Shown here one piece after another: positions 28,127-50,900 of a DNA stretch of 64,000 bases. The translations under genes and the position numbers were made by a program. Position 1 is the first letter of the stretch, and the number at the start of each line of letters is the position of its first letter. A model generated the notes under the pieces. The model had not been told where the DNA came from, did not search any database, and worked only from the letters and a program-made list of their open reading frames with translations. Origin of the DNA: Paraburkholderia youngii (GTDB taxonomy: Bacteria > Pseudomonadota > Gammaproteobacteria > Burkholderiales > Burkholderiaceae); contig NZ_JAALDK010000001.1 in the NCBI RefSeq assembly GCF_013366925.1, positions 3,155,165 through 3,219,164 of the forward strand, in the 5' to 3' direction.

Positions 28127-28142
28127 TGTGATGGGCGTCACA
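28127..28142. promoter_or_regulatory. CRP-type site TGTGATGGGCGTCACA
   Basis: A full match to TGTGA-N6-TCACA, 67 bases upstream of the DUF1796 gene and downstream of the Crp-family gene. One of five or six such sites in the window that precede surface-programme genes. Confidence 0.78.
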
Positions 28143-28215
28143 ACTCGTGACGCATGGAGTGGAATGCTTAATCGGTACAGCGTCGCTCCTGCCAGGGCCT
28201 ATCTCGAACAACCGG

Positions 28216-28995
28216 TCAGGAGGGGCGCGCTTGCCCGACCGTAGCGCCTTCGCCCATCGCTTTCGCACGCAGTTGCAACTCAGCCTCGCCCCTCGCAAGC
28301 TTGGCCAGCATTTCCGCATTGCGAACGATCAGGCGTCGATAGTCACGTTCGATCACCTCTCCGTCGATAAGAGAACGGATCGCGCGCGATACTGTTTCGC
28401 GGCTCACGTTGGCCATGATCGCAATGGCCTGCTGGTTGGGTAGATTCTCGATTGTCAACAGGCCGCCTGCACTCGTTTTCATGGAAGCCTCGAGCACTGA
28501 ATAGACCCTGGCGTAAGCGCGCGTCAGACCGAGCATCGACCGGTAATTCGAAGCCTGGCGAATCGTGCGGCACAGCCGTTGCAACAGCGCCTCCACCACT
28601 GCGGGATTACGGTAAAACAGTGTTTGGGCCTGATGCTTCGGCAAAAAGCCGACCACTGATTCCGTGATCGCAATGATCGAAGCCGAGCGAGGACCGCCGT
28701 CGATAATCGACAGCTCGCCAAAATAGTCACCCGGCTCGACGAAATCGAGTCCCACCTCGCGGCCGTCTTCCGACAGTGCGATCACCTGCAGGCGGCCGGA
28801 CATCAACATGAGTAGCGATGAACCGGCGTCGCCCTTATGAACGACGAATTCCCGCTTCGAGAAGCGGCGATAGCGAATGTGGCGGCTGGTCTCTTCGATG
28901 ACTTCGTTCGCAACGTTGCGTAGCAGCTTTTGTTGTTTCAAGAGATCAATGGCCTTTAATGGGCCGTCACTGATCCTTTCTTCTTCGGTCGACAT
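28216..28995 (-). CDS. Crp/Fnr-family regulator with cAMP-type pocket
   Basis: The product has 259 residues from the ATG at 28995 (GAGAGAG upstream). The cyclic-nucleotide pocket reads FGELSIIDGGPRSASI with Arg103-Ser104-Ala105, the Arg-Ser pair that binds cAMP phosphate in CRP. No Cys cluster for Fe-S is present, which argues against an Fnr type. The recognition helix SRETVSR (198-204) keeps the Arg-Glu...Arg pattern with which CRP reads GTGA. Sites of exactly that type lie at its own promoter (29060-29075) and in front of neighbouring surface genes. It is divergent from an operon containing an adenylate cyclase. I infer a cAMP-responsive activator of this locus with possible autoregulation. 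Confidence 0.9.
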   Translation of the reverse strand: MSTEEERISDGPLKAIDLLKQQKLLRNVANEVIEETSRHIRYRRFSKREFVVHKGDAGSSLLMLMSGRLQVIALSEDGREVGLDFVEPGDYFGELSIIDGGPRSASIIAITESVVGFLPKHQAQTLFYRNPAVVEALLQRLCRTIRQASNYRSMLGLTRAYARVYSVLEASMKTSAGGLLTIENLPNQQAIAIMANVSRETVSRAIRSLIDGEVIERDYRRLIVRNAEMLAKLARGEAELQLRAKAMGEGATVGQARPS

Positions 28996-29059
28996 CTCTC
29001 TCAATTGTAATTTGCTGACTCGGGCACGCAGGACGATATGCGTATCGAGCGCTGGCATC

Positions 29060-29075
29060 TGTGACGGCCGTCACA
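29060..29075. promoter_or_regulatory. CRP-type site TGTGACGGCCGTCACA in divergent promoter region
   Basis: A perfect palindrome midway between the Crp-family gene (65 bases from its start) and the FecR-cyclase operon (77 bases from its start). The identical 16-mer recurs at 42109-42124. Confidence 0.85.
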
Positions 29076-29152
29076 TCCTAATTACAAAATTTCGCTAATC
29101 ATTACCGGATTATTCGATCGCAGTGCCGTGAGGATCTCGGGGAAAAGATCAG

Positions 29153-30511
29153 ATGCAGGAACGCATACTTCGAGGGGGTCGTTCGGCCGCATTGCAGTTC
29201 GTTGTTTGCACGGCGTTTCTTGTGCACCATGACGCGCATGCGGAGTCCGCGACGATTGGCAATGCAGTCCTCGTGATTGGACAGGCGTGTGCACAACGCG
29301 CGCAAACGTTTTGCACCCCGCTTGCCAAAGGCGCCTCCATTGAGCAGGGCGACACCGTCGAGACGGGCAAAGATGGCTATGTGTACATCACCACGGTCGA
29401 TCACGGCTTTATCAGTGTGCGACCCAATTCATCGCTGACGTTCGAACGCTACGAATACAACCCGGCCGATCCACGCAAGACGGTCATCAAGCTGTCGCTG
29501 ACGAGGGGCATGGTGCGCGAGATATCGGGTACGGGTGCTCAGGCCGCGCGCGACCACTATCGGATGAACACTCCGGTCGCCGCGCTCGGCGTGCGCGGCA
29601 CCGATTTCACCGTGTTCACCGACGAAAACGTGACGCGCGCAGACGTGCTTAGCGGCGGCATCGTGATGACGCCGTTGGGCGCCGGCTGCTCGGCGACGGG
29701 CGTGGGTCCTTGCGAGGGCTCGGCTGCGGCACAGCTATTTGCTGGCAAACCGAACGAATGGCTGCAGGTGTATCGCGGCAGCGCTCGCCCTGTCGTAATC
29801 GACTCTGGACCGTCGCGGGTGATGTCCGAGCAGGCAGCGGCCGAGTTGAAGAGCGAGGAAAACAGCGCTCGCGCGGCGACCGCCCAGGCACCGGTCAGTC
29901 CGGGCGTTGCGCCTGCGGAGTTAAGCTTCCCGCTGACGACACCTCCCCCCGCCGATCCGCCGACGCCGGCAGCACCAGCGGTACCCGTCATCGACCCAGC
30001 GCCGGAGGCGCAGATCTTCTGGGGACGCTATAAGTCGCTGGGTTCGTACGGCGCGGACACGACGTTGACGGCGCTGGTGCAGCAAGGCAGCGAACAGGTT
30101 AGCCTGACGGGGACGGGGCCTTTCGCGATGACCCGCGCGCCGCAGACGGAGATGGTGATGCCCACCTCCGGCAACTTCAAGTTCGGGCTTCAGGCGGCGC
30201 AAGCGTTCGTGGTCAATGCAACGACGGGCGCGGCGACAGAGGCGAAGATCAGCAATCCGCTACTGTCGATCGATTTCGGCACGCGTGCTTTTCAGACGAG
30301 CATGAAGCTCAGCGCAAACGGCGCGAGCTATGAGATTTCGGGAAGCGGCAGCGTGACTCCGGACGGCAAGCTCGTCAGCGAATTCGGCGTTTCGCGGGCG
30401 CTCGTCAGAGGCGTGCTCGCCGGCAAGAATGCCACGCAGGCGGGCTATCTGTTCACGCAGTCTCTCGGCGGGAGCAATGCGGCCTATGGAGCGACCCAGT
30501 GGTCCCGGTAG
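29153..30511 (+). CDS. FecR-domain periplasmic protein
   Basis: The product has 452 residues. A signal peptide precedes AESATIG. The FecR domain follows, with VLVIGQACAQRAQ, GDTVETGKDGYVYITTVDHG, FISVRPNSSLTFERYEYNP and MNTPVAALGVRGTDFTVF, which is the canonical FecR ending. A Pro/Ala-rich linker near residue 265-285 leads to a beta-rich C-terminal half with no known family. Unlike sigma-regulatory FecR it lacks an N-terminal membrane anchor, so it should be periplasmic. It overlaps the cyclase gene by 13 bases. FecR plus CHASE2-cyclase plus TPR/OMP is a recurrent trio, and the FecR protein may feed a periplasmic signal to the CHASE2 domain. Confidence 0.85.
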   Translation: MQERILRGGRSAALQFVVCTAFLVHHDAHAESATIGNAVLVIGQACAQRAQTFCTPLAKGASIEQGDTVETGKDGYVYITTVDHGFISVRPNSSLTFERYEYNPADPRKTVIKLSLTRGMVREISGTGAQAARDHYRMNTPVAALGVRGTDFTVFTDENVTRADVLSGGIVMTPLGAGCSATGVGPCEGSAAAQLFAGKPNEWLQVYRGSARPVVIDSGPSRVMSEQAAAELKSEENSARAATAQAPVSPGVAPAELSFPLTTPPPADPPTPAAPAVPVIDPAPEAQIFWGRYKSLGSYGADTTLTALVQQGSEQVSLTGTGPFAMTRAPQTEMVMPTSGNFKFGLQAAQAFVVNATTGAATEAKISNPLLSIDFGTRAFQTSMKLSANGASYEISGSGSVTPDGKLVSEFGVSRALVRGVLAGKNATQAGYLFTQSLGGSNAAYGATQWSR

Positions 30512-32364
30512 CAGGCCTTGGCACGCTGGACCAAATTCGCCTCACGATATTCGCCCTGATTTCACTGCTAGGCTGCTTGCTGGCGACCGGAGCATGGTCG
30601 CCTGAACCATATAGCCGGCTCGGCTATGCGCTCGACGACTGGCAGCAGAAGCAATTGATCACCGCCGCACCGGACCCGCGCATCGCTCTCGTCGACATCG
30701 ACGAGCGCTCTCTCGATGCGATCGGGCCGTGGCCATGGCCACGCGCCGTGATGGCGCGACTCGCGCAGACGCTGTTCACGCGTTATCACGCGAAAGCGGT
30801 CGGCCTCGACATCATGTTTCCCGAAGCAGGACCGGACGACGGCGATCGCGCACTGCTCGACATCGCGCATCAGTATCCGCTCGTGTTCGCGCAGGCATTC
30901 GCGCTCTCGGAGGGAGCGGGGGCGCCTCATGCCGGGCATGTCGGCGGCGCGCTGCCGACAGGCACGCACGTTGCCCATGCGCCGGTGGCGTCGGGTTTCG
31001 TCGGCAATTTCTTTAGTGATCCACAGGTCTGCGTCGGGCATGTGACACCGCACGCCAGTGTGGACGGGGTGGTCCGTTCCGTCGCCCCGGTGATCCAGTA
31101 CGCAAACGCCGTCTATCCGATGCTCGCATGGCAGTTGATCCATTGCCGCAATGCAAGCACCTTGCCGCTCGCATCGCTCGCCAGCCTGCCGATTGACTCT
31201 CAAGGCCTGATGCATGTGCCGTTCCGGCATTCGCTTCAGTCGCTCGACGTGGTATCCGCTTTCGACGTGCTCACGCAAAGGGTGCCATCTTCCCTGCTGG
31301 CGCACCGTTATGTGCTGGTCGGCTCGTCGGCGCTCGGGCTCACGGATCACGTCGCATCGCCGATCGAACCATGGTTGCCGGCGGTCATCGTGCATGCCGA
31401 ACTGCTTGGCGAACTGCTCGATCTGGGCTCGCACGACGATACGCAAGCGCAGGCGGCATGGCTACCGATCGTCTGGGCGGCGTGCTCGATCGTGATCTTC
31501 GCGGTGCTGTTCCGCCAGCAACGCGCGACGATTGCGCTGGTGTTGATCGTCGTGACGACGTCATTGTGGCTGGGCCTGCTGGCTTCGACACGCAGTGTGC
31601 CCACGCAACTGGCCGCACTGCCGTTGATTCCCGCGGCGGTGTTCCTGCTGATGCAGGCGCCCGTCGAGTGGATTTATTCGCAGGCGGCGATGCGCTCGTT
31701 CGAGCGCCGCTTCAGCCACTATTTGCCGCCGACGGTGCTGCGCGAAATCATCCGCGAGCGGGGACTCGCGACCTTCAAGCCGGAGCGTCGGCAGATATCT
31801 GTGTTGTTCGTCGATATCGAAGGCTACACGCGGCTCGCCGAGCAGATGCCACCCGAGCATCTGCTCGCGATGACGGAAGTCGTGCTGACGCGTCTGACCG
31901 GCTGCGTGCACGACACGGAAGGAACGCTGGATAAATACATGGGCGACGCACTGATGGCATTCTGGGGCGCTCCGCTCGCGCAGCCCGACCATGCGGATCG
32001 CGCTCTCGATTGTGCGAGCGCGATGCTGCGCGAGTTGGCGGCGCTCAATCATAGTGGGCTGCCTGTGTTCGACGGTAGGACGATTCGCGTTCGCATCGGC
32101 GTGAATAGCGGACCCGCGGTGGTCGGTGAAATCGGCTCCAGCTCGCGTAAGTCCTACACCGCGATTGGCGATACGGTCAACGTGGCGTCGCGGCTCCAGG
32201 AGTATGCGAAGACGCTCGAAGCCACTTTGCTGATTGGCCACGAAACTGCGCGGCAGAGCGAACGTCATCGCCTGAAGACCTGCTCTCAGGTGGCACTGCG
32301 CGGGCGCGACACTGCAGAATGGCTTTATACGATGCACGAAGGCGATACCCATGCGATTCATTGA
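30499..32364 (+). CDS. CHASE2-domain class III adenylate cyclase
   Basis: The product has 621 residues starting at GTG 30499. An N-terminal helix (FALISLLGCLLATGAW) is followed by a periplasmic CHASE2 domain (about 35-320: RIALVDIDERSLDAIGPWPW, VGLDIMFPEA). Three helices lie near 325-400, then a class III cyclase domain from about 430. Metal Asp439 (FVDIEGYT) and Asp483 (LDKYMGD) are present. The base-selecting pair is Lys479 and Asp558 (AIGDTVN), the adenylate-type combination, and Asn561 and Arg565 complete the active site. cAMP synthesis controlled by a periplasmic input is therefore expected. The Crp-family gene next door is the obvious receiver. Its stop overlaps the barrel gene by 14 bases. 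Confidence 0.92.
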   Translation: MVPVAGLGTLDQIRLTIFALISLLGCLLATGAWSPEPYSRLGYALDDWQQKQLITAAPDPRIALVDIDERSLDAIGPWPWPRAVMARLAQTLFTRYHAKAVGLDIMFPEAGPDDGDRALLDIAHQYPLVFAQAFALSEGAGAPHAGHVGGALPTGTHVAHAPVASGFVGNFFSDPQVCVGHVTPHASVDGVVRSVAPVIQYANAVYPMLAWQLIHCRNASTLPLASLASLPIDSQGLMHVPFRHSLQSLDVVSAFDVLTQRVPSSLLAHRYVLVGSSALGLTDHVASPIEPWLPAVIVHAELLGELLDLGSHDDTQAQAAWLPIVWAACSIVIFAVLFRQQRATIALVLIVVTTSLWLGLLASTRSVPTQLAALPLIPAAVFLLMQAPVEWIYSQAAMRSFERRFSHYLPPTVLREIIRERGLATFKPERRQISVLFVDIEGYTRLAEQMPPEHLLAMTEVVLTRLTGCVHDTEGTLDKYMGDALMAFWGAPLAQPDHADRALDCASAMLRELAALNHSGLPVFDGRTIRVRIGVNSGPAVVGEIGSSSRKSYTAIGDTVNVASRLQEYAKTLEATLLIGHETARQSERHRLKTCSQVALRGRDTAEWLYTMHEGDTHAIH

Positions 32365-33667
32365 GCGGCGCATTCACGCGCTGCCGTCGCGTGGTTCATG
32401 GCGCGCAATCGTCGGACTGGCGCTGCGTGCGCTCGGCATCGTAGTGATGAGCGCACTGGTATCTCACGCAATGGCGCAGACCCCGGAAAGTCTCTTCGAT
32501 CAGACCATCGATGAAGATCTGCAAGCGCAGGCCGAGGTTGCGATCAGTGACGGAGATCGCCAGCGCGCGCTATTGCTGCTGAATGAAGTGGTACGGCGTG
32601 ACCCCCGCCAGGCAGGCGCGCTACTCGATGCGGCGATTCTGTATTGCCAGTTGGGAGAGCGCACGCGCTCGCAAGAAACGCTCGCGCGGATCGAAGCAAA
32701 ATACGACGTGCCACCCGCCATCGAGGAGTTGATCGTCTTCTATCGCGCGAGCGCGTGCACGCCGAGTGGCCCGCGGCCGCAGTTGATGGTGAGCTTTGGA
32801 GCGGGCGTCACGTCGAACGCGAATTATGGACCGTCGAATCCCGTCGTGAATTTCGCGCCCAGTGCGCCATTCGGTTCACGGACCCTCGAACCCGAAAGCC
32901 TTGCGCACGGTGACCAGTACATTGAATCGGCGGTGCAGGGCGAGTTGCCGATTTCGTCCGTGCCAGGTCTGGCACTGCTCGCTGGACTAACCAATCGTCA
33001 GTACCGCAGTCAGCACAGCTTCGACCAGCGCTCCGCCACGATCGGTCTTGCCGACAGGACCAGTGTGATGCATGGCGAGCTTTATAACCAGCTCACCGCA
33101 GACATGCTGTGGCTCGGCACGCGCGTCTATCAGCGCGATATCGGCTGGCACGCGAATTTTTGGCTGCCGCCGTCGGCATGGCGGCCGATGCTCGCGCGCG
33201 GCGGCCTCGATTTGACGGTGCTGGATTCCGCGTATCCCGGCAACTCGCTCTATGACTCGGTGTATGTCGAAGTGCGTGCGGCGGTCCAGGCTCGCATCGG
33301 CGAGCGCACCTCGGTGCAACTATTCGTCGGTCCAGCATGGGACAAGCCGTTGAACGGACGCCCCGGCGGATCGCAGCACGGTTATTCAGCGTGGCTGTCG
33401 GCCGATTACGACATGGCCCTTCATGGCCAACTCGAAGCAGTCTTGCAGCAGCGAACGCTGATCGACGCGGATGCGTATGACCCAGTATTCTTCGGCACGC
33501 TGGGCCGGCACCAGACCATACGCGCGGCATCGCTGCGCTACACGTATCCAATGGTGCGCGGCTGGTCGGTGTATGCCCAGGCATCGGCAGGGCGGGTCTC
33601 CAATTCGATATCGCTCTTTGCGTACTCCGTGTACAGCGGCTCGCTCGGTCTGTCGTGGAAGTACTAA
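32351..33667 (+). CDS. TPR-containing outer-membrane beta-barrel protein
   Basis: The product has 438 residues. A signal sequence ends near SHAMAQ. A short TPR-like region (AEVAISDGDRQRALLLLNEV, VRRDPRQAGALLDAAILYCQ) covers about residues 60-135. The rest is a series of amphipathic strands with many aromatic residues (MVSFGAGVTSNANYGPS, LRYTYPMVRGWSVYAQASAG) ending SLGLSWKY, an aromatic C-terminus of the kind recognised by the Bam machinery. The layout resembles Slam/DUF560-type barrels with an N-terminal TPR. Third gene of the FecR-cyclase operon. It may sense or export something linked to the surface layer; that is inference. Confidence 0.75.
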   Translation: MRFIERRIHALPSRGSWRAIVGLALRALGIVVMSALVSHAMAQTPESLFDQTIDEDLQAQAEVAISDGDRQRALLLLNEVVRRDPRQAGALLDAAILYCQLGERTRSQETLARIEAKYDVPPAIEELIVFYRASACTPSGPRPQLMVSFGAGVTSNANYGPSNPVVNFAPSAPFGSRTLEPESLAHGDQYIESAVQGELPISSVPGLALLAGLTNRQYRSQHSFDQRSATIGLADRTSVMHGELYNQLTADMLWLGTRVYQRDIGWHANFWLPPSAWRPMLARGGLDLTVLDSAYPGNSLYDSVYVEVRAAVQARIGERTSVQLFVGPAWDKPLNGRPGGSQHGYSAWLSADYDMALHGQLEAVLQQRTLIDADAYDPVFFGTLGRHQTIRAASLRYTYPMVRGWSVYAQASAGRVSNSISLFAYSVYSGSLGLSWKY

Positions 33668-33668
33668 C

Positions 33669-33691
33669 GCGACAAGCGCCGCGCTAGTCGC
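33669..33691 (+). terminator. Hairpin after the FecR-cyclase-barrel operon
   Basis: GCGAC-A-AGCGC-C-GCGCT-A-GTCGC folds into a stem with one internal A/A mismatch, two bases past the stop codon. Only a short TAAAAT follows, so termination strength is uncertain. Confidence 0.45.
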
Positions 33692-33985: not shown

Positions 33986-33996
33986 CCCATACCCCT

Positions 33997-36417
33997 CTAC
34001 GCCAGCACCTGCGCGAGCGACTTCGAGTAGGTCGCGGCGATCGCGGTCCAATCTCCCTCTGCTTCAACACGGCGGCGCGCATTGCGCGTCATCGCATCAC
34101 GCTCCGCCTGCGTCAGTTGCAACATCGCTTCAATGCCATCGGCGAAGTCGTTGGCTTCTGCGCACAGGTATTCATGGCCGGCGCGATAGCCGAGGCCGCG
34201 CGCCCCAAATTCGGTACTCACCACCGGCAGACCCACAGCAGCGTATTCGAGCAATTTCAGGTTGGTCCCTGAGCCGGAAACTACCGGGTTCAGGCCCAGG
34301 TCGCTGATTTCAAGCCACGTGGCCTTTTCTGCATCGCTGACCACATCCACGAGACCGACGTTGGACGGCAGCTCCCAGGTCTGGACTGAGTGGCATACCG
34401 AACCCAGCAATACGAAGTGGACCGAAGGCAAGCGCGTGGCTGCTTCGACGATCAAGCGCGCGGCATCGATGTTCGGGCCGTGCGCGCTGCCCATGAAGAG
34501 GGCCAGCGGATGCGCGACACGCAGCGCCGCGCGGCGGCGCTCTGTCTGCGCCCCTGCACGCAGCGGCGTCGCCGCGACGTCGATGCCGTTGGGAACGACG
34601 ATCATCTTCGCGGCATCGCCTGCCGTCCCGTAGAGCTCGCCCATGCGTTCGCGATCCCGCTCCGAGCACGCGGTGACGAGCGCCGCGTCGAGTACGGCAC
34701 GGCGCTCCAGCGCAAGGACCTGATCGACGGCCCAGCGATGTGGGCCGTAAATGTCGGCCTTCAGATCGGCTTCGACATTGTGCGCTTCGTAGACGAAGGG
34801 TTTGGACGTGACTTCGCGCAATGCGGGCATTGCGTACGGATGAGAGCACACGATCAGGTCGGCGCGTCGCGCGAGTGCGTCGATCGCCTCTAGCCATTCG
34901 GGGGCCGTGGTTGGATGCATGGCGGCCGCGATATCTTCAGCGGAAGCGCCCAGCGAGCGTTCGAGCTGATACTCGGCTTCAGTGAATTCCTGAGACTTCG
35001 GCACCAGTTCCTCGGTAAAGCCATCCGCGAGATTGCGCGTACCTCGCATACCCACAGGTGCCAGATTGACGAACTGCACGTCGAAGTGTTCGGCGACCCG
35101 TTTGTACAGCCCATGCAGGCGCAGCTTGCCGCCACTGATCACCGGGGTGATCGGATAGGTATTGAGCACGCCAAGCACCGGCTTCGTCCGCCTGGTGACG
35201 ATCGCTGGGGCGGCGACTATTGCGTCGGTTGCCTGACCGTCGGAAGCCACTTGTCGGCCGGCCGCGAGCAGCGCATCGCACAGCGTGGTCCAACTCAGAT
35301 ACTCAACGCTCTTGCGCCCGGCCAATCCCATATTCCGCGCTTCGGTGAGATCGCCGCAAACCCGCCGCAACGCGCCGGCGAGCACAGCCGCATCCGGTTC
35401 GACGACCAGTCCCGAGCGCTGATGCTCGATCAGTTCGAGCGGACCGCCCGAATCGGTAGTGGTGATGACCGGCTTCGAGGCCAGCATCGCTTCGAGCGTG
35501 ATAAGCCCATAGTCTTCATCACGCGGCACGAACGGCACGCAGACTGCGCGCGCATACTCCTGCGCGAGCTGAACATCGGTGATGCGTCCGAGAAAATGAA
35601 TGCCGCGATGACCCGCGGCGGCCGCGCGCAAGCGCGCTTCATCGGGGCCGCTGCCGGCAATATGCAGTGGCACCTCCACCTTGCTCTGCCGGTAAGCCTC
35701 GATGATCAGATCGATACGCTTGGCCGGGTCCAGACGGCTGGCGCTGAAGATGGCTTCCTGCGGGCCTGGCGCGAGCCCCTTTAGACCGGTCGGATGATGA
35801 TGGACCGCGACTTTCACGCCGGCGGGGAAATAGCCCTCGCGCGCCGCGACCACCTGCGAAATCGCGGCATAGTGAACGATCTTGTCAGGCCGCATTGCGA
35901 TCGCGTCGAGCAGGCGTATCACCGCGCGCGTGACGGGCCCTGGAAACGCCCAGCAAGCCGCTTGCGGCGCGCGCTGCCACGCTGCGTCGAGCGCGTCGAG
36001 CAGTTCGTCGAGTTCGAGGTTCGCCGCATCGCGCTTGACGAGCGCGTCGACGATACGCGCCGGCATGCCGAGCGCGACCAGTGGGTCGGGTTCGAACTGC
36101 GTCGGCATAGCCGATGGGTAGCAGTCGTACAGGCCGCGCAGCGTGTGCTGGAGATAGACGACGTGATTGCGATGTCGAATCGCCCAAGCGGGGTACTTGG
36201 TGCTGATCACCATGTCGAAGTGATCGAGATCCAGTCGCAAGAACTGCCGATAGCTGGCCAGCAGTTCGCCCATGTTGCCTTCGCGGGTTGGCAGTTTCAT
36301 CAGTTCCGCCACGATTCCCGGCCGTGCGTTCAGCGCGTCGAGCAGGCCCCACCACAGGTTCTCAGCGCCGCCGATCACAAAGGGGACCGGGCTCGGCGCG
36401 ACAATCGCAATTCTCAT
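33997..36417 (-). CDS. Fused tandem glycosyltransferase (two GT4-type domains)
   Basis: The product has 806 residues and is a fusion of two GT-B enzymes. The first (about 1-395) has IVAPSPVPFVIGGAENLWWG, VAVHHHPTGLKG, FSASRLDPAKRIDLIIEAYR and DEDYGLITLEAMLASKPVIT with the GT4 E-x7-E. The second (about 415-806) starts VLGVLNTYPITPVISGGKLR and has MIVVPNGIDVAAT, FMGSAHGPNIDAARLIVEAA and PVVSGSGTNLKLLEYAAVGL, with the variant acceptor loop of another GT4 subgroup. It is the last gene of the glycan operon, 11 bases after the preceding glycosyltransferase. Two domains suggest it adds two sugars in succession. Cytoplasmic or membrane-associated; sugars unknown. Confidence 0.88.
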   Translation of the reverse strand: MRIAIVAPSPVPFVIGGAENLWWGLLDALNARPGIVAELMKLPTREGNMGELLASYRQFLRLDLDHFDMVISTKYPAWAIRHRNHVVYLQHTLRGLYDCYPSAMPTQFEPDPLVALGMPARIVDALVKRDAANLELDELLDALDAAWQRAPQAACWAFPGPVTRAVIRLLDAIAMRPDKIVHYAAISQVVAAREGYFPAGVKVAVHHHPTGLKGLAPGPQEAIFSASRLDPAKRIDLIIEAYRQSKVEVPLHIAGSGPDEARLRAAAAGHRGIHFLGRITDVQLAQEYARAVCVPFVPRDEDYGLITLEAMLASKPVITTTDSGGPLELIEHQRSGLVVEPDAAVLAGALRRVCGDLTEARNMGLAGRKSVEYLSWTTLCDALLAAGRQVASDGQATDAIVAAPAIVTRRTKPVLGVLNTYPITPVISGGKLRLHGLYKRVAEHFDVQFVNLAPVGMRGTRNLADGFTEELVPKSQEFTEAEYQLERSLGASAEDIAAAMHPTTAPEWLEAIDALARRADLIVCSHPYAMPALREVTSKPFVYEAHNVEADLKADIYGPHRWAVDQVLALERRAVLDAALVTACSERDRERMGELYGTAGDAAKMIVVPNGIDVAATPLRAGAQTERRRAALRVAHPLALFMGSAHGPNIDAARLIVEAATRLPSVHFVLLGSVCHSVQTWELPSNVGLVDVVSDAEKATWLEISDLGLNPVVSGSGTNLKLLEYAAVGLPVVSTEFGARGLGYRAGHEYLCAEANDFADGIEAMLQLTQAERDAMTRNARRRVEAEGDWTAIAATYSKSLAQVLA

Positions 36418-40790: not shown

Positions 40791-40836
40791 GAAACGGATT
40801 CGAGGTGGATCGCGGCGCTCGTCGGAACCGGCTTCG

Positions 40837-42123: not shown

Positions 42124-42124
42124 A
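42109..42124. promoter_or_regulatory. CRP-type site TGTGACGGCCGTCACA between glycan operon and T1SS
   Basis: A perfect palindrome identical to 29060-29075. It lies 127 bases upstream of the type I secretion ATPase and at the very 5' end of the divergent glycan operon, so one site could control both. Confidence 0.85.
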
Positions 42125-42251
42125 TTTCACGCGCAATTGATCGAGCAGAATGAGCGCCTTCAGAACGGACCGATGCACGGGGTGTCGGCCAAAGAATGAC
42201 CACACTAGAAGTGAATCGAGAGGCGTTGCGAGACCGGCGTAACGAGCAAAG

Positions 42252-44104: not shown

Positions 44105-45469
44105 ATGGTTAATTCCACAAGCAAGAAAGCGGCGGCGCCTGCCATCGAGGTGCTCGGCACCGGATTGCCGCCGGTCGTCAATGTCGATGAATCGCGCTAC
44201 GTCAAGATTGGCTGGACCGTCGTACTGGTCGGCGTCGTAGGCTCGTTGCTGTGGGCCGCATTCGCGCCCCTCAGCAAGGGCACAGAGGTTCAGGGAACGG
44301 TGGTGGTGGCCGGCAATCGCAAGACCATCCAGCACCCGACCGGTGGCATCATTCGCGAAATCCTCGTTCAGGATGGCGATCAGGTGAAGGCCGGGCAAGT
44401 GCTCATCAGGATGAACGACGTGCAGACGCGCTCGCAGAACGCGACCATCCGCTCGCAGTACCTGACCGAGCTCGCCACCAAGGCGCGCCTCGTCGCGGAG
44501 GCGACCAATGCGAAGACCATCGCCTTCCCGCGTGAGTTGACGGACGGTGTCGCCGCACACGATCAGGAGGCCGAGGCCGACGTGCAGCTGCAGGAGCAAC
44601 TGCTGAGCGCGCGCCGGCTGGCACTGAAGGCGTCGATTGGCGCGCTGCAGGAGAGCATCGCCGGATACCAGGCGCAGCTGGCTGGCGAAAACGACGCGCA
44701 TGCTCAACGGCTGCTCGAGCACCAGGCGCTGCAGGACCAGTTGACCGGCGTTCGTGAGCTGGCGATCGAAGGATATGTGCCGCGCAGCAAGCTGAAGGAC
44801 CTGCAACGTCAGGAAGCCGTGCTGAACGGCGAGATCGCGCGCCAGGCGGGCACCGCCGGGGAATTGGCGAGCCAGTCGGCCGAGGCGCGTCTGCGTATCG
44901 CACAAGCGCAGGAAGACTATATGAAAGAGGTGCGCACGCAGTTGAGCGACGTGCAGCGTGACACCGAGGCATTGCGTAGCCGGCTGGACGAAAGCGAATT
45001 CAACCTTGCCAACAGCGAGGTCCGTTCCCCGGTTGACGGCACCGTCGTCGGGATGAGCGTCTTCACCGAAGGCGGCACGATCGGCCCCGGCGCGAAGCTG
45101 ATGGATGTGGTGCCGACTGGCGAACCGCTGGAAGCGGAAGGGCACCTCGAGGTGAACCTGGTCGACAAGGTTCGCACGGAAATGCCGGTCGACATGATGT
45201 TCACCGCGTTCAACCAGAACACCACCCCGAGAGTGCCCGGCACGCTGACGTTCGTGTCCGCCGACCGCCTCGTGGACGAACACACCGGCGCCCCGTACTA
45301 CAGGGTGCGCGCCAAAGTGACCGAGCAGGGCATGAAACAGTTGCGCAAGCTGGATATCAAGCCGGGCATGCCGGTCGAGATATTCATCAATGCAGGTCAG
45401 CGTTCGATGCTGAGCTATCTGCTCAAGCCGATCTTCGATCGCGCACACACTGCATTCACGGAGGACTGA
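44105..45469 (+). CDS. HlyD-family type I secretion periplasmic adaptor
   Basis: The product has 454 residues. One N-terminal helix (VVLVGVVGSLLWAAFAPL) is followed by a barrel-sandwich hybrid half (GTVVVAGNRKTIQHPTGGII, REILVQDGDQVKAGQVLIRM) and long coiled-coil hairpins (about 100-280). The second lipoyl half is NLANSEVRSPVDGTVVGMSV, and the C-terminal beta-barrel has MPVEIFINAGQRSMLSYLLK, typical of PrtE/HlyD. It links the inner-membrane ABC protein with TolC. Same operon, gaps of 14 and 1 bases. Confidence 0.94.
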   Translation: MVNSTSKKAAAPAIEVLGTGLPPVVNVDESRYVKIGWTVVLVGVVGSLLWAAFAPLSKGTEVQGTVVVAGNRKTIQHPTGGIIREILVQDGDQVKAGQVLIRMNDVQTRSQNATIRSQYLTELATKARLVAEATNAKTIAFPRELTDGVAAHDQEAEADVQLQEQLLSARRLALKASIGALQESIAGYQAQLAGENDAHAQRLLEHQALQDQLTGVRELAIEGYVPRSKLKDLQRQEAVLNGEIARQAGTAGELASQSAEARLRIAQAQEDYMKEVRTQLSDVQRDTEALRSRLDESEFNLANSEVRSPVDGTVVGMSVFTEGGTIGPGAKLMDVVPTGEPLEAEGHLEVNLVDKVRTEMPVDMMFTAFNQNTTPRVPGTLTFVSADRLVDEHTGAPYYRVRAKVTEQGMKQLRKLDIKPGMPVEIFINAGQRSMLSYLLKPIFDRAHTAFTED

Positions 45470-45470
45470 A

Positions 45471-46937
45471 GTGCAGCGCGTTTTTTCACTTCGGTCGTCC
45501 AACGCCGGTTCTACCGGCACGGCGCAGGCCGTTCCACGCCTGCGCACGTTGTTGCTGGCGATGTCGGTTGGTGCCGCAATGATCGCGCCGCGTCCAGCGC
45601 TTGCGCTCGGCCTCGTCGATGCGTACGAAGCCGCGCTCAGCCATGACCCGATTCTCGCGGGCGCGGCGAAGCAGAAGGAAGCCGATGATGCGAATGTCGG
45701 GATTGGTCGCTCGTATTTGTTGCCCAACGTTTCGGCGAATTACGCGCGATACCGCGACGTAACCGGTACGACGTACCTAGGTACGCAGTACGGGGATGTT
45801 TCCACACATCAGGTCTACGGTGCCTATTCCCAGGGCGTTTCGCTGCGTCAGCCACTGATCAACTTCGAAGGCATTGCGCGCTATCGCTACGGCAAGGCAA
45901 TCGCGCTCGCCGGGGACGCGACGTTCGACGATAGCCGGCAGGATTTGCTAGTGCGCGTGTTAACTGCCTATACGGATACGGTCTTCGCGGAAGATCAGTT
46001 GTCGCTCGCGCTCGCGCAGAAAAACGCGTTCGATGAACAGTACGCCGGCAATCAGGCGATGTTCAAGAACGGCGAGGGCACCCGCACGGATATCCTCGAA
46101 ACGAAATCGAAGGCCGCGCTGGCAGCGGCCGATGTCGCCGACGCCCGTGATAGCCTGGATAACGCTGCGCATGCGCTCGAAGCGCTGACCGGTTTGCCGG
46201 CGTCGCTCGATGTCGCGGGTCTGGACCGTCTGAAGGACGACTTTCAACCGGTGCTGCCCGAGCCGCTCAGTTTCGATCATTGGCACGATATTGCGTTGGA
46301 AAACAACGCGCAGTTGATCGCTGGTCGACACTCAGTTGAAGCGGCGCAGCAAAAGATGAAGATCGTACAGGCGGGCTTTTATCCGCACGTGGATCTGGTG
46401 GCGAGCGTTGGTCAGAATCAGTCGACCCAGACCAATGCGATCGGTACTCGCTATCTGACCAAATCGGTCGGTGTTGAAGTCACGATACCGCTGTATTCCG
46501 GTGGACTCGTGCGCGCGTCGACCCAACAGGAGCAGGCTAATTACGAACGTGCGCAATTCGAATTGCAAGACAAGACCGACAAGGTGTTGCTCGACCTGCG
46601 CAAACAGTACAACCAGTGCGTGAGCAGCATGACGCGCATCGACTCCCTCAAAAGCGCCGTCGAATCCGCGATGCTGCAGATCGTGGCGACCCGCAAAAGC
46701 GTTCAGGCGGGCGTGCGCACAAATGCCGACGTATTGACGGCTACACAGCAGCTGTATTCGGCCAGACGTGATCTGGCTCGCGCGCGTTATCAGTTCCTGC
46801 TGGCAGATCTGCAACTCAAACACGCTGCCGGGATATTGACCGAGCAGGATCTGGTGGAGATCGCGCAGTCGTTCGTTCCACCTGCCCAGGCGGCGCCGCT
46901 CGCCAATGCGGTGGTGCCGACAGCGCGGGTTCATTGA
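45471..46937 (+). CDS. TolC-family outer-membrane channel of the T1SS
   Basis: The product has 488 residues starting at GTG 45471, one base after the adaptor stop. A signal peptide ends near PALALG. TolC architecture is shown by GLVDAYEAALSHDPILAGAA at the N-terminus, NVGIGRSYLLPNVSANYARY, the duplicated half VEAAQQKMKIVQAGFYPHVD and VEVTIPLYSGGLVRASTQQE. Helical repeats and NADVLTATQQLYSARRDLAR near the C-terminus complete it. Forms the trimeric exit duct for the type I exporter; a hairpin terminator follows. Confidence 0.93.
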   Translation: MQRVFSLRSSNAGSTGTAQAVPRLRTLLLAMSVGAAMIAPRPALALGLVDAYEAALSHDPILAGAAKQKEADDANVGIGRSYLLPNVSANYARYRDVTGTTYLGTQYGDVSTHQVYGAYSQGVSLRQPLINFEGIARYRYGKAIALAGDATFDDSRQDLLVRVLTAYTDTVFAEDQLSLALAQKNAFDEQYAGNQAMFKNGEGTRTDILETKSKAALAAADVADARDSLDNAAHALEALTGLPASLDVAGLDRLKDDFQPVLPEPLSFDHWHDIALENNAQLIAGRHSVEAAQQKMKIVQAGFYPHVDLVASVGQNQSTQTNAIGTRYLTKSVGVEVTIPLYSGGLVRASTQQEQANYERAQFELQDKTDKVLLDLRKQYNQCVSSMTRIDSLKSAVESAMLQIVATRKSVQAGVRTNADVLTATQQLYSARRDLARARYQFLLADLQLKHAAGILTEQDLVEIAQSFVPPAQAAPLANAVVPTARVH

Positions 46938-46950
46938 TCGATACCGTGCG

Positions 46951-46976
46951 CCACGCCCGATCACGTGTGGGCGTGG
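46951..46976 (+). terminator. Hairpin terminator after the T1SS operon
   Basis: CCACGCCC and GGGCGTGG form a perfect 8-bp stem with a 10-base loop, 13 bases after the TolC stop. A T run appears only about 25 bases later, so it may act with help of Rho. Confidence 0.55.
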
Positions 46977-47018
46977 CATTGGCGTGGCGGTTCTCTTTAC
47001 CTATTTTTACTTAAGGAT

Positions 47019-47034
47019 TGTGCTGGCACGCACA
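47019..47034. promoter_or_regulatory. CRP-like variant site TGTGCTGGCACGCACA
   Basis: Perfectly symmetric arms GATTGTGC and GCACAATC (47016-47037) with six bases between. Each half differs from the CRP consensus at one position. It lies 93 bases upstream of the small gene at 47128. It could instead be a second terminator hairpin for the T1SS operon. Confidence 0.5.
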
Positions 47035-47127
47035 ATCTTGTTTGGGCATCTGCACTAAATTAGGTGGCATCGTGGTCCGGCAGCATTTCCAATTGCCGAG
47101 TGCCGCGCAATCTCACCGAAACAGATC

Positions 47128-47520
47128 ATGAAGCCCGATTCAATCACAAAGCGAAAGGCCGCAAGCGGCAAAAGACTCGGTCTGCGACGCTGGATCGTGG
47201 ACTGGACCATCGAGCCGGCTGCGGCCTCAGGCCATATCAGCCTGTCGTTATACGTGGCGGGCGAGTCAGACGACAACGTTGGCTCGTCGACCACCCGGCA
47301 TTTCCTGCTCCGACAGGATCGGTTGAGCGAATTGATCGATGCGCTGAACGGGACGCTGCAGCATTCAAATGCCAGCCGCCTGCTCGAAGAACAGGCGCGC
47401 GCAGCGGATCCTGCCGCGGGTCATGACGCGGACACTGCCGGGGAGTTTGCAGAAAGGGATCAGCCTGATTTGACGTCGAACCACTTCTCACTCGGCGCTT
47501 ATGGCCTCGTGGGTAATTGA
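47128..47520 (+). CDS. Small hypothetical protein linked to the surface locus
   Basis: The product has 130 residues. A basic start (MKPDSITKRKAASGKRLGLR) precedes a compact domain, RRWIVDWTIEPAAASGHISL, SLYVAGES and RHFLLRQDRLSELIDALNGT, then an acidic tail. No family is recognised. The pattern RW-(V/I)D...strand...R-F-L...(L/M)I--L-G resembles the truncated gene at 59945-60228, and both have a CRP-type box upstream. Placed between the exporter and its putative cargo, it may be an accessory such as a chaperone or regulator; that is a guess. No signal peptide. The ribosome site is weak. Confidence 0.55.
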   Translation: MKPDSITKRKAASGKRLGLRRWIVDWTIEPAAASGHISLSLYVAGESDDNVGSSTTRHFLLRQDRLSELIDALNGTLQHSNASRLLEEQARAADPAAGHDADTAGEFAERDQPDLTSNHFSLGAYGLVGN

Positions 47521-47961
47521 CGGCAACGGGATGCGATTTCTTTAGGGTCATGCTTGGTTTTAACGTTTGCGTGTCGCATCCCGCAGTGTTGGGCGTTCCT
47601 TCCGTTTGGCAAGGTCGGTTCTAGCCGGAGAGGGGAAACAAGCGCTCATGCGTTACCGCGCCCAGCGCTCGTATTCTTTGCAAGGCTTCTTTAAAAGCTC
47701 TTTCCCGCATCAAATGCCTCTTTCTCAGGTCTGAGTTGCGCAGAAAAAAAGCAACTCTATCGCCGAGTCTCCAACTATTTGCGCTTTTGTGCGCGCCATC
47801 ACAATTCGCGAACAACCCGACGTTGAAAATCCCCCTGCGTTGTAGCTTTGTGGAAAACCGTCGGGTGATTCAAGTCCAATGAATCTGACGCGTCGACTCC
47901 CTAACGGCTCATGACGTATCACACATGTGTTGATATTCGTACTCTATCGGAGAAGAATCAA
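47521..47961. other. Leader region of the surface-protein gene
   Basis: About 440 bases without a gene. They hold a CRP-like site (47788-47803) and the palindrome ACACATGTGT at 47921-47930 inside a TATC...GATA frame, 31 bases before the start codon. A long untranslated leader would fit a highly expressed surface protein. Confidence 0.5.
47788..47803. promoter_or_regulatory. CRP-type site TGTGCGCGCCATCACA
   Basis: Nine of ten consensus positions of TGTGA-N6-TCACA, 158 bases upstream of the surface-protein start. Same spacing as the other boxes of the locus. Confidence 0.6.
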
Positions 47962-50900
47962 ATGGCTGCAGCACAATATTACGAAGAAGTACAACAGGCG
48001 TATCTGGCTTATTATGGCCGCCCGGCTGACCCCGCAGGTCAAGAATACTGGGCAATGCGGTTGGACAACGCCGGGGGCAACCTGAGCTCGATCATCAACG
48101 AGTTCGGTACGTCGACTGAATCGACCGCCCTGTACGGTGGCTCGAACCTGGCAGCGCAAATCACCGCGATCTATCAGACGCTGTTCGGCCGTGCTCCTGA
48201 CGCCGAAGGTCTGAACTTCTATCAACACGGCATTAACACCGGCGAATTCACGCTGGCTTCGGTCGCACTGAACATCTACTACGGCGCGACGGGCACCGAC
48301 AAAGCTCAACTGGATGCAAAGCAGGCTTACGCTGACGCATTCACGAATGCTCTGTCGGCATCGGTGTCGGCGCAAATCGCCTACTCGGGCAAGACCGCTT
48401 CGGACAATGCTCGCGCAGCCGTTGCAGCCGTGACCGATACGGCTTCGGAAGGCACTGCAGTCGGGAACCTGGAGTCGACGCTGGCGAACATCAATGCGGG
48501 CGCTGTTGGACAGACGGTTACGCTCACTACGGGTGCGGATAACTTCACGCTGACCGGCAGCAACAATGTCGTCAATGGCGTCCTGAACGACGCCTCTGTG
48601 ACGGGCAACGCCGCCGCGACGCTCACGCCGCTGGACAAAATCTCCGGCACCGGCACGGGTAACGTCCTTAATCTCGTTGATTTGCAAGCGGGCGGCACGG
48701 CCTTGGCGACGGGTATCTCGGTTTCGGGCGTGCAAACGGTCAACGTCACCGCTAGCGGCGCGTCCGGCGCGGATAACTTCTCGAACTTCACTGGTCTGAC
48801 CCAGTTGAACGTGACGGAAGCTGGTGGTGCTGCGGGCACTACTGCCGCTGCTACGACGGCTGTGACGCTCACTGACAGCGCTGCTGCCGCGTCGACAATC
48901 AACGTTCAGGGCGGTTCGAACGTTGCTGTCACGGCTAATGGCGTGACGGCTGCCGGCACCATCAACGTCGGTACGACGACGCAAGCGGCCGGTACCGTTT
49001 CCGTCACCGAAAATATGCTGGCCACCCAAACGGGCCTCCACACGGCTGACGCTATCAACGTGACGGGCGGTACGTCGGTCACGGTCACGGCCAACCTGAA
49101 TGAAAAGGCTGGCGCGGGCAACACGGTCACGGGTGGTGTTATTTCCGTCACGGGCGGGTCGGCCACGACGACCGTCACGGTCAATCAAACGGCTGCCGCA
49201 ACGGCTGCTAACGCACAGCTGGCAGTCGCCGGCGTGTCGCAGACGGTCGGCGCGACTCCGGCCGCGCCCGGCGTGCAGGCAGTCACTGCCACCACGCAGA
49301 CGCCCGCAGAGCTTGCTTCCGCCGCCGTTGCAGGTGTGGTAGACGGTCAGGTTATCGTCCAGGACGCAAACTACGGCACGCAGCTCGCCAACACCATCAC
49401 ATCGGTGTCGCTGGCAAACTTCGGCAACAACTCGCAAATCAACGACAACGCTCTGACGTCTCTGTCGCTGACGGGTGGCACTGGCACGCTGACGCTGACC
49501 AATGGTGCGACCACGCCGACCAACACGACGCTCGCCCTGTCGTTGGACGGCGTTGGCACGAGCGCAGCAGGTGTGACCTTCGCTGACGCAAATGGTGAAG
49601 TTAAGACGCTGAATGTGACGACGGCTACGGCAGACTCGTACCTCACCGTTACGGATGCCCATCTGCAGAGCCTTAACATCTCCGGCACGAACACGCTGCA
49701 TCTGAGCACCGTTCCGGCCACGGTCACGACGATTGCAGTGTCGGGTGCGGCAGGCTTCAACGATGGCGGCACGCTGGCCGCTGACGCCGCGCTGACGTCG
49801 TTCACCACGACGTCGAGCGGCAAGATTGTGGCTACGCTGGACGATACGAAGCAATCGTTCGTTGGTTCGACCGGTCAGGACGTCATCACGATTTCGGCGG
49901 ACGCTACGAAGGCCATCACCGGTGGTTCGGCGACGAACAACGAGGTCATCTTCAACAAGGCCGCGACGACGTTCAATGCTACCGCTGCAGACCTGACCAA
50001 CACGAACGTGACGGGCTTCAGCGTTTTCGGTCTGGGTGCAAACTCGTCGGGGACGTGGGACCTGAGCAAATTCAACTCGGGCTTCAACGCCATCGACGTG
50101 ACGGCCGGCAACACCGCAGCTAACGTTGCCAATACCATCGTCAACGCTGCGACCGGTACGTCGCTCAGCATTGACGGTTCGGGTACTGACACGGGCTCGG
50201 TGTCCTTGTCGTATGTTGACACCACCGGCGCGACTGACACGACCAACCTGACGATTGGTTCTGCGACGGCTGCCGGCCTCAGCATCGCTAGCGTGACCCT
50301 CGCTGACGCAAACGGAGTCGGTGTCAATACCGTCAACGTGACGACCTTGGGTACGGACATCAATAACGCGGGCGGCGCAACGGATACCATCGGAGCGCTC
50401 AACGACAACGGGCTGTCTGTCCTGAATGTGAGCGGAACCGCAGGTCTGTCGATTACCGCGCTCGACGAAACAGCGCATCAGGCAACGGCGTTCACCATCA
50501 ACTCGACCGAGTCGGGCCAGAACGGCACGACGATTGGCACCCTGACTGACATCAACCTGGGCAACCTGACCTTCACGGGTACGGCTAATGCCGATGTCGG
50601 TCAACTCGTTGTCGCGGGTGGCTCGGTGACGAACCTCACCATCACGAACTCGGGCACGGGCATGGCTACGGTGGGTGACGGCACCGCCTTCACTGATGCC
50701 GCACTGACCAAGTTGACGCTGAACGGTAATGTGAATCTGACAACTGGCGTGTTGGCAGCAACGAGCGGCGTCACCATTGCTGGTTCGACGGACAACGCTC
50801 ACGTCACGCTTAACCTGGCGGGGGCCACGACCGGTACCGACTCCATCAGCCTGGGCAACGCCAACAACAGCATTATCGATACGAGCATTGGCGGCACGGT

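Follow-up and report, generated by a model that had tools for sequence, protein, structure and literature searches.

In a 64,000-nucleotide stretch of Paraburkholderia youngii DNA, referred to here as the window, genes for a Crp-family protein and a CHASE2 cyclase lie beside genes for exporting a glycan, for a type I secretion system and for a surface protein, which raises the question of whether a single cyclic-nucleotide circuit controls them all. The preferred reading, which sequence comparison makes about 74% probable, is that the locus is a dedicated regulon activated by its own Crp, in which an RsaA-type S-layer is built on its own O-glycan, with feedback on crp. The features concerned are the following (boxes carry no strand).

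27314..28060, minus strand: DUF1796 protein gene (PF08795, E=9e-13), putative papain-like fold, probable regulon member
28127..28142: predicted exact Crp box; TTTACT 21 bp off at 28105-28100, DUF1796 side
28216..28995, minus strand: crp, predicted Crp-family activator with cAMP-type pocket (cNMP_binding, HTH_Crp_2)
29060..29075: predicted exact Crp box, crp/fecR intergenic; TATCGT at 29038-29033 (crp side) and AATCAT at 29097-29102 (fecR side), 21 bp each
29153..30511, plus strand: FecR-domain protein (PF04773, E=1.7e-10), presumed periplasmic from a signal-peptide-like N-terminus (by eye)
30499..32364, plus strand: predicted CHASE2 class III nucleotidyl cyclase (D439, D483, K479, T554, N561, R565)
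32351..33667, plus strand: protein modelled as TPR plus 14-strand outer-membrane beta-barrel (TPR_19; Foldseek)
33997..36417, minus strand: two-domain GT4 glycosyltransferase, glycan operon (Pfam)
36429..37460, minus strand: GT4 glycosyltransferase (ORF 36429-37985 probably overextended)
37457..38761, minus strand: fusion of DUF4214 and methyltransferase domains that may modify the glycan chain end (PF13489, E=3e-14; PF13946, E=1e-7)
38758..40011, minus strand: Wzt, ABC transporter ATPase with Wzt_C (PF14524, E=2.5e-27)
40008..40907, minus strand: Wzm, ABC-2 permease (PF01061, E=1.3e-16; start probably internal)
40837..42045, minus strand: GT4 glycosyltransferase, first glycan-operon gene (in-frame starts TTG 42045, ATG 42003)
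42109..42124: predicted exact Crp box common to glycan operon and prtD; GATACT at 42087-42082 and CAGAAT at 42146-42151, 21 bp each
42252..44090, plus strand: PrtD-type T1SS ABC transporter (TIGR01842, 774 bits, cutoff 510)
44105..45469, plus strand: HlyD-type T1SS adaptor (TIGR01843, 376 bits, cutoff 209)
45471..46937, plus strand: TolC-type T1SS outer-membrane channel (TIGR01844, 307 bits, cutoff 225)
47019..47034: two-mismatch symmetric box TGTGC-N6-GCACA; TAAATT 21 bp downstream, 47056-47061
47128..47520, plus strand: small conserved protein adjoining the T1SS (BssS-like below cutoff, E=0.0067)
47788..47803: one-mismatch box TGTGCGCGCCATCACA; GAAAAT 21 bp downstream, 47825-47830
47962..51396, plus strand: cargo, predicted RsaA-family S-layer protein with N-terminal DUF4214 (listed ORF start 47911)

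Coat, export machinery and candidate sensor

Profile searches recovered the domain make-up given in the earlier note, namely Crp, FecR, CHASE2 with a class III cyclase, PrtD/HlyD/TolC, Wzm/Wzt and a DUF4214 protein. The guess that the cargo is S-layer-like is likewise borne out, because the cargo is, on profile comparison with RsaA chains (E=6.8e-87; E=2e-17 with the single sequence) and in Foldseek (best E=5.7e-24, all six matches at E<=0.001 being RsaA), related to RsaA, the S-layer protein of Caulobacter, with TM scores of 0.45-0.48 by query length and 0.53-0.67 by target length. The Pfam family RsaA_NTD, present at the N-terminus of C. crescentus RsaA, is missing from the window cargo, in which DUF4214 is the sole Pfam domain; it is present in the protein P0191, which is 41% identical to the cargo over 78% of the query. 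As in C. crescentus, so far as the accessible parts of the sources go (PMC11055950, PMC10765051, PMC11026435), the RsaA relative adjoins a PrtD/HlyD/TolC-type T1SS; RsaA is anchored there on the O-antigen, and here a Wzm/Wzt glycan operon adjoins. This operon holds a predicted set for ABC-transporter-dependent O-polysaccharide export, consisting of Wzm (PF01061) and a Wzt with Wzt_C (PF14524), and it includes the DUF4214-methyltransferase gene, which is added here to the genes named earlier and which by eye is present in 4/4 orthologous operons inspected. A homologue (31-39%) of the small protein at 47128-47520 adjoins a T1SS in four relatives. NpdA S-layers of Paracidovorax and other Beta- and Gammaproteobacteria also provide a Burkholderiales S-layer with a linked secretion cluster, but that cluster is of type II, and regulation is unmentioned in the accessible text (PMC10765051).

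The products of the fecR, cyclase and barrel genes may together form a sensor. The barrel protein is encoded together with the CHASE2 cyclase, and its model (pLDDT 85.4) matches the OmpG, CymA and BcsC barrels in Foldseek. In an alignment with chain 1wc0 of a solved bacterial adenylate cyclase, the six cyclase residues listed above correspond to the predicted class III adenylate set, presumably two metal-binding Asp, a Lys/Thr or Lys/Asp pair for the base, an Asn and an Arg. Of the Lys479/Asp558 pair named previously, K479 stands, whereas the column that we assume to specify the base in 1wc0 is occupied by T554, not D558. These residues and the domain order suggest that the cyclase makes cAMP, that Crp binds it and that the input comes through CHASE2 and FecR.

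A similar arrangement is the CyaD1/CyaD2/CyaK-Clr-NsrA system of Sinorhizobium meliloti, which, in the accessible parts of the sources, combines a CHASE2 adenylate cyclase, a Crp-family activator and an outer-membrane beta-barrel in signal reception, and in which Clr-dependent genes include a FecR-domain gene and polysaccharide genes, as here (PMC13001267, PMC5498481, PMC10127613). The same parts give a TGTTN8AACA-like Clr box, in contrast to TGTGA here, and some 28 cyclases in the genome, and mention no S-layer, T1SS or Wzm/Wzt module (PMC13001267, PMC5498481, PMC10127613); in P. youngii, sensor, regulator and targets are in one cluster. The barrel may be NsrA-like, to judge from its co-encoding with a CHASE2 cyclase and from its model. 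The BiofilmReg operon of Burkholderia contaminans, another member of the Burkholderiales, likewise pairs a periplasmic FecR-domain protein with a CHASE2 sensor, but CHASE2 there belongs to a histidine kinase accompanied by a response regulator, without a cyclase, and crp is unmentioned in the accessible text (PMC5192318).

Boxes and their spacing to -10-like hexamers

The exact pattern TGTGA-N6-TCACA has 5 copies in the 9.49-Mb genome, against 0 for a reversed-pattern control; 4/5 are inside the window and three lie within 14 kb at the locus. All five boxes named in the earlier note are present, those at 28127, 29060 and 42109 being exact and those at 47788 and 47019 having one and two mismatches, respectively. 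Boxes 29060 and 42109 are letter-identical, and the box at 47788 has an identical copy in Burkholderia guangdongensis (locus L029). The fourth exact box of the window, at 59878 and absent from the earlier note, is within an ORF and has no -10-like hexamer 21 bp off. With up to one mismatch, 69 matches were found genome-wide against 51 in the control, and with up to two the window holds no excess (20 matches against 20.4 expected); it is therefore the exact boxes and where they lie that carry the signal. A composite box/-10 pattern has 11 matches in the genome, 6 of them at the locus, and 0 in the control.

Within the window, crp and the cargo gene are each faced by a box that has a hexamer at 21 bp, as are the operons for FecR and the cyclase, for the glycan and for type I secretion. 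Homologue starts make 28995 the probable Crp start in place of 29058, so that box 29060 sits 64 bp ahead of the start codon; GTG 42123 of the first glycosyltransferase gene is inside box 42109. A 16-bp box 21 bp from a -10 hexamer, the mark of class II CRP promoters, is thus found here, though not conserved on the fecR side, and this fixed distance predicts activation. In the E. coli promoters of this class, according to the accessible text of PMC12360894, the box similarly overlaps the -35 region and its centre falls near -41.5. The differences from E. coli are that the box core here tends to YGGCCR, as seen across the 80 loci described below, that the regulon is local and that this Crp is not an E. 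coli-type orthologue.

Across 80 loci selected by Crp similarity alone, which are related to one another so that the counts are not independent, 38 exact boxes were found, against a mean of 0.97 and a maximum of 5 for 29 scrambled half-sites. All 38 have a half-site spacing of 6, and no other spacing from 0 to 15 gives more than 3. Intergenic DNA, taken to include the first 90 nt of ORFs in the box count, holds 33/38 boxes and makes up 12% of the loci, and the unselected positions 6 and 11 are Y and R in 38/38. The boxes are genuine, and their occurrence departs strongly from chance. Exact boxes lie upstream of crp in 13/79 cases (25/79 with up to one mismatch), of fecR in 10/46, of prtD in 6/15 and of DUF4214 genes in 3/12 (9/12 with up to one mismatch). 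None was found upstream of the cyclase (0/50), HlyD (0/15) or TolC (0/16) genes, nor upstream of Wzt (0/41), Wzm (0/36), GT806 (0/12) or GT518 (0/10), with GT428 at 1/21, the Wzt, Wzm and GT genes counted being mostly internal to operons. A -10-like NANNNT stands at exactly +21 in 29/76 directions, against a mean of 5.8% at other offsets, and is missing in both directions from 11/38 boxes, including those of loci L033-L035. FecR, CHASE2-cyclase, PrtD, Wzt and DUF4214 are all missing from 10/80 loci, some loci being short.

Comparison of upstream regions finds the same promoters boxed in relatives. Among seven close relatives including the window, the crp-side hexamer is kept in 7/7 and the one at +21 on the fecR side, counted as kept with 4 of 6 matches, in 3/7; LEh10, P. 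unamae, P. tagetis and C. udeis show 0-2 matches there, which casts doubt on feedback to the sensor operon beyond the P. youngii strain. At the 42109 box, hexamers are kept on the glycan-operon side in 5/5 and on the prtD side in 5/5 genomes; the case for control of the glycan operon comes from these five Paraburkholderia genomes, which share the GT/prtD intergenic region. The hexamer is kept at 8/11 DUF4214 genes of close relatives including the window, and most cargo genes of relatives have the geometry of box 47788. In four relatives, boxes are also found on other contigs, at genes for the cargo or for DUF1796. At the LEh10 orthologue of DUF1796, on another contig, both the box and its TTTACT hexamer are retained; within the limits of the search, two DUF1796 copies in P. 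franconis lack their own box. In LEh10, P. franconis and P. unamae, exact boxes are found at S-layer-type genes situated 75 kb or more from a contig end.

Reader, ligand and sign of control

The boxes are probably read by the Crp encoded beside them. Alignment with E. coli CRP (NC_000913) upholds both the Arg-Ser pocket and the SRETVSR helix reported earlier: the equivalents of Glu72, Arg82, Ser83 and Ser128, which we take to be the cAMP pocket residues, are retained, as are those of R180, E181 and R185, presumably the readers of TGTGA. With 66.2 bits against a cutoff of 266 for the E. coli-type CRP equivalog NF008732, the protein is not an E. coli-type CRP orthologue.

It is unlikely that another resident Crp/Fnr-type protein reads the boxes while the neighbouring Crp serves some other function. 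This Crp is found in 5/144 genus genomes, and TGTGAYN4RTCACA, a form chosen post hoc after the 80-locus count, peaks in those five (4-13 per genome, against 0-3 in the 139 non-carriers); loci fetched by this Crp alone are box-rich, the upstream region of crp itself is boxed at the frequencies given above, and the R-S pocket occurs in 0/10 other genome proteins above the HTH_Crp_2 cutoff. On the other side, the element TGTGACCYRGGTCACA, found beside the PEPCK gene and with a hexamer 21 bp off, recurs among the matches listed in many genus genomes without this Crp, so some other protein probably reads a similar site, and the RETVSR helix is shared by CRP2 (62892-63560) and the protein at C2:100736. 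With the plain N6 pattern, module-free genome G004 has 4 sites, equal to module-bearing G160, and composite-pattern counts overlap (5 in G160, up to 7 in module-free genomes).

A real regulon with a ligand other than cAMP, such as cGMP, is about equally improbable. The equivalent of E. coli Thr127, in the C-helix, is Ala in this Crp, in a column that varies across the family, and this makes the nucleotide choice less certain; the four retained pocket residues and the K479/T554 pair, which agrees with the 1wc0 residues and whose role is assumed, both favour cAMP. Less likely still is that the boxes are mainly repressor sites at which cAMP turns the coat off, as the 21-bp spacing is that of class II activation and the -10 hexamers lie clear of the boxes, although CRP-dependent repression is reported at one E. 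coli promoter in the accessible text of PMC12360894. An anti-phage Pycsar-type system of a cyclase and a cyclic-nucleotide-binding effector is scarcely credible, since the PADLOC matches (the cyclase domain with PycC models, E=1.7e-25 at best, and the cNMP domain with models of TIR effectors) look like shared domains in a CHASE2 cyclase and a Crp with a DNA-binding HTH in place of any TIR or membrane effector.

Regulon model and its meaning

In the model of a dedicated Crp-activated regulon, the outer-membrane TPR-barrel and the periplasmic FecR protein would relay a signal to the CHASE2 cyclase, which would produce cAMP. Crp with cAMP, its probable ligand, would then act as a class II activator at boxes of the form TGTGA-Y-N4-R-TCACA, whose centres would lie about 41.5 bp ahead of the transcription start. 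It would activate its own gene, giving positive feedback, and would also turn on the S-layer gene, the operon for type I secretion and that for the glycosyltransferases, Wzm, Wzt and the methyltransferase; in the P. youngii strain, the fecR-cyclase-barrel operon and the DUF1796 gene are probably targets too. The earlier idea of one regulon for glycan export, T1SS and surface protein is strengthened by the same-promoter boxes in relatives, the 21-bp geometry, the boxed cargo copies elsewhere and the greater number of boxes in Crp-carrying genomes. That of a strictly self-contained module has to be given up, because some targets sit elsewhere in relatives.

Because boxes are in an activating position at both crp and the sensor-cyclase operon, two nested positive loops would operate in the P. 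youngii strain. The circuit might even be bistable, individual cells of one clone being either fully coated with S-layer and O-glycan or naked and flipped by the trans-envelope barrel/FecR/CHASE2 sensor, perhaps reading surface state; this is a tentative suggestion that the poor conservation of the fecR-side hexamer makes rather doubtful.

RsaA-type S-layers can amount to 10-31% of cell protein, as stated in the accessible text of PMC11026435, so the timing and mode of switching matter; the same text on C. crescentus RsaA makes no mention of cAMP, promoter or transcription. Within the literature searched, control by Crp and CHASE2 is the new part relative to known RsaA-type S-layers, and no earlier case was found of what the model, if true, would represent, an RsaA-type S-layer made on demand under a cAMP switch of its own. 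The Crp circuit is local and patchily carried (5/144 genus genomes), not global. The inputs of CHASE2 were called unknown in 2016 in the accessible text of PMC5192318, and the locus supplies a promoter list, a predicted inducer (cAMP) and a candidate sensor set of CHASE2, FecR and outer-membrane barrel. One type of box with a testable geometry apparently wires together the coat protein, its export machine, the glycan that anchors it, the sensor and the regulator.

Exact boxes in the window and the genome

The window corresponds to C1:3155165-3219164 of a 9.49-Mb genome in four contigs, and the predicted Crp boxes (TGTGA-N6-TCACA) lie where the earlier note placed them, with exact copies at 28127, 29060 and 42109, a copy with one mismatch at 47788 and a copy with two at 47019. 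Exact copies are concentrated here, four of the five in the genome falling inside the window, and the reversed control gives none. Looser matching yields 69 boxes genome-wide at up to one mismatch vs 51 in the control and, at up to two mismatches, no enrichment in the window (20 found vs 20.4 expected). Because the window is at chance with two mismatches, the signal resides in the exact boxes and their placement, and weak boxes were counted only together with their position.

Two exact copies were not taken as regulon sites. The box at 59878 lies within an ORF and lacks a hexamer at +21, and the fifth genome copy, at C1:6331712, was set aside since it belongs to an element found repeatedly in genus genomes that lack this Crp. 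The element reads TGTGACCYRGGTCACA, has its hexamer at a distance of 21 bp and occupies C1:6331712-6331727 (position 3713 of fetched locus L109), between genes identified by eye as those for PEPCK and a D-2-hydroxyacid dehydrogenase. The class II search also turned up another composite element that recurs in genus genomes, TGTGATAACCCGCACA...TAGACT, for example at C1:5080488 of this genome. Near the module, an IS21-family transposase gene comes after three tRNA genes, for Asn, Gly and Thr (59471-59719 and 60381-61880), which may mark the edge of an island.

Conservation of the box and promoter geometry

The named genomes with the closest Crp matches in a similarity search are Paraburkholderia. 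When the best 80 of 240 loci from named genomes were chosen by Crp protein similarity only, 38 exact boxes were found across 33 loci (80 loci, 1,357,597 bp), whereas 29 scrambled half-sites averaged 0.97 and never exceeded 5, and among spacings of 0-15 only a spacing of 6 yields such a count. Thirty-three of the 38 lie outside ORF calls (a category that includes the first 90 nt of each called ORF), in DNA that makes up 12% of the loci. Position 6 is a pyrimidine and position 11 a purine in every box (38/38), neither being required by the search. The form TGTGAYN4RTCACA, picked after this result, occurs 5, 11, 7, 4 and 13 times in the five of 144 genus genomes that carry a Crp orthologue (E ≤ 1e-70) and 0-3 times (mean 0.78) in the 139 that do not; with the plain N6 form, one module-free genome reaches four boxes, as many as the module-bearing genome G160.

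Within 350 bp upstream, an exact box precedes 13 of 79 crp genes (scrambled-box mean 0.03), 10 of 46 fecR genes (0.03), 6 of 15 prtD genes (0.00) and 3 of 12 DUF4214 genes (0.00), and at up to one mismatch the corresponding numbers are 25/79, 24/46, 6/15 and 9/12; these counts are not independent, because the species are related. No exact box was found in the same region of the 80 loci upstream of the genes for the cyclase (0/50), HlyD (0/15), TolC (0/16), Wzt (0/41), Wzm (0/36), GT806 (0/12) and GT518 (0/10), and one was found for GT428 (1/21) and one for the barrel protein (1/21), the latter at a locus where the barrel gene is divergent from fecR. These gene classes are mostly operon-internal. 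DUF1796 genes were not found within the 80 loci. Where the Crp is more distant, in five loci from Aquabacterium and Burkholderiales bacteria (L094 4705, L095 4643, L099 4541, L100 4557 and L103 4541), an exact box lies 174-180 bp upstream of ORFs of 1,092-1,508 aa; the three of these ORFs that were scanned (L094, L095, L099) have no Pfam match.

The main invariant blocks in an alignment of crp upstream regions (eight rows, two from the same LEh10 locus) are the box, a TATC-T element and the start codon, and in the prtD/glycosyltransferase intergenic region of five genomes the box is conserved together with flanking elements on both sides. No promoter emerged from simple sigma-70 scanning of the two intergenic regions, and an offset scan took its place. 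In the window, a TATAAT-like hexamer starts exactly 21 bp from the box on the side of crp (TATCGT), fecR (AATCAT), the glycan operon (GATACT), prtD (CAGAAT), the S-layer gene (GAAAAT) and the DUF1796 gene (TTTACT), and the weak box at 47019 is followed by TAAATT at 21 bp. Among close genomes (the window, LEh10, P. unamae, P. tagetis, P. franconis, C. udeis and B. guangdongensis, where the region is present), a +21 hexamer matching TATAAT at no fewer than four of six positions is kept at crp (7/7), the glycan operon (5/5), prtD (5/5), DUF1796 genes (2/2) and DUF4214 genes (8/11), and on the fecR side in only 3/7. In LEh10 and P. franconis the stretch that separates prtD from the glycan operon contains a pair of boxes, each 21 bp from its own hexamer.

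This comparison used 85 hand-picked box/direction pairs. A repeat covered every one of the 38 boxes in the 80 loci, each read both ways: the +21 hexamer has A as its second and T as its sixth base in 29 of 76 directions, representing 27 of the 38 boxes, and 11 boxes lie outside this geometry; the same A/T pattern averages 5.8% at the remaining offsets between 5 and 49 (maximum 16%) and 3.6% with scrambled boxes. A composite box/-10 pattern has 11 matches in the genome, six of them at this locus, and none in the control. Across the genus it has 5-17 matches in genomes with Crp and a mean of 2.3 (maximum 7) in those without, so that the ranges overlap. A box centre at -41.5 is that of class II CRP activation (PMC12360894). 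If transcription starts 7 bp past the -10 hexamer, a box of 16 bp at this distance of 21 bp would have its centre at -41.5, and the predicted arrangement is class II.

Boxed genes also occur outside the cluster. In LEh10, the DUF1796 orthologue (contig C276) and a second DUF4214 protein gene (C256) lie on contigs other than that of the cluster and are both boxed. Exact or near boxes also precede DUF4214 genes on three other contigs of P. unamae (C7, C13, C20), one such gene on another contig of P. tagetis (C109), and two in P. franconis, one on another contig (C2) and one on the cluster contig. Because the relatives are draft assemblies, a separate contig need not mean a distant gene; the boxed DUF4214 genes at LEh10 C256, P. 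franconis C2 and P. unamae C13 lie 75 kb or more from any contig end, the last without a matching +21 hexamer. Two P. franconis copies of DUF1796 are themselves without a box; each follows a boxed DUF4214 gene that is transcribed in the same direction. An acyltransferase gene identified by Pfam in LEh10 is boxed, and so are several genes identified by eye, which resemble acyltransferase genes in P. franconis and P. unamae and, in the latter, also a GT2 gene; the window acyltransferase gene (51835-53043) has no box immediately upstream, even at up to three mismatches. In P. unamae, an exact box (L134 6406) also lies about 240 bp upstream of a gene read by eye as encoding a collagen-repeat-like surface protein.

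Cargo, glycan operon and putative sensor proteins

The cargo is a relative of RsaA, which bears out its description as S-layer-like in the earlier note. Among solved structures, a profile of 32 cargo homologues matched RsaA chains and nothing else (E=6.8e-87), the single sequence matched RsaA chains at 2e-17, and all six Foldseek matches of the cargo model (pLDDT 83.5, pTM 0.65) at E ≤ 0.001 were RsaA, including the O-antigen-bound 6z7p, with moderate TM-scores. The N-terminal helical part of the cargo is DUF4214, and the same domain occurs in the glycan operon:

37457-38761, minus strand, methyltransferase-DUF4214 fusion (seen by eye in 4/4 orthologous operons read)

This frame replaces a rejected one at 38094-38885. 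The S-layer protein (47962-51396, plus strand) carries at its N-terminus a domain that this methyltransferase also has, DUF4214, and the two copies might read the same glycan; this stays an idea, as comparing them directly gave no significant similarity (E=0.93).

The cyclase has a CHASE2 domain, K479, and the metal and transition-state residues. The proposed adenylate-type Lys479/Asp558 pair holds for Lys479 and fails for Asp558, since the base-specifying position aligns to T554. The third gene of the cyclase operon encodes a TPR protein whose model includes a 14-strand barrel. Its assignment to SlipAM (Slam) was rejected (1/9 members, E=0.0021). A Pycsar anti-phage system was also rejected as a reading of the locus.

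Crp keeps E72, R82, S83 and S128 of the E. coli protein together with R180, E181 and R185, and T127 is replaced by Ala. The ten other proteins above the Crp-HTH cutoff, found among 150 of 257 genome candidates scored, all lack the Arg-Ser pocket, and four of the ten show no Crp architecture. CRP2 (62892-63560, minus strand) is a Crp-family protein with the same RETVSR helix and without the Arg-Ser cAMP pocket; in P. tagetis and P. unamae, homologues of it (64-66%) are encoded close to the S-layer gene. Distances correlate with those of Crp for FecR (r=0.86, 44 loci), the cyclase (0.81, 49), PrtD (0.62, 15) and Wzt (0.56, 40), which carries little weight because it is confounded by species descent.

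A probable cAMP/Crp regulon for surface protein and glycan

Among the matches listed for CHASE2, FecR, S-layer, T1SS and Crp topics in the open-licence literature, titles and abstract openings describe no such module; the nearest system found there, as far as these excerpts go, is CyaD/CyaK-NsrA-Clr of S. meliloti. The sites, their geometry and the gene make-up can be read directly from the DNA. Crp would bind the boxes, with cAMP as its probable ligand, activation as the probable direction of its effect, and a signal presumably received by the sensor operon. The locus is best read as a regulon for S-layer and O-glycan that cAMP and Crp activate, with crp itself under feedback and probably, in this strain, the sensor operon as well.
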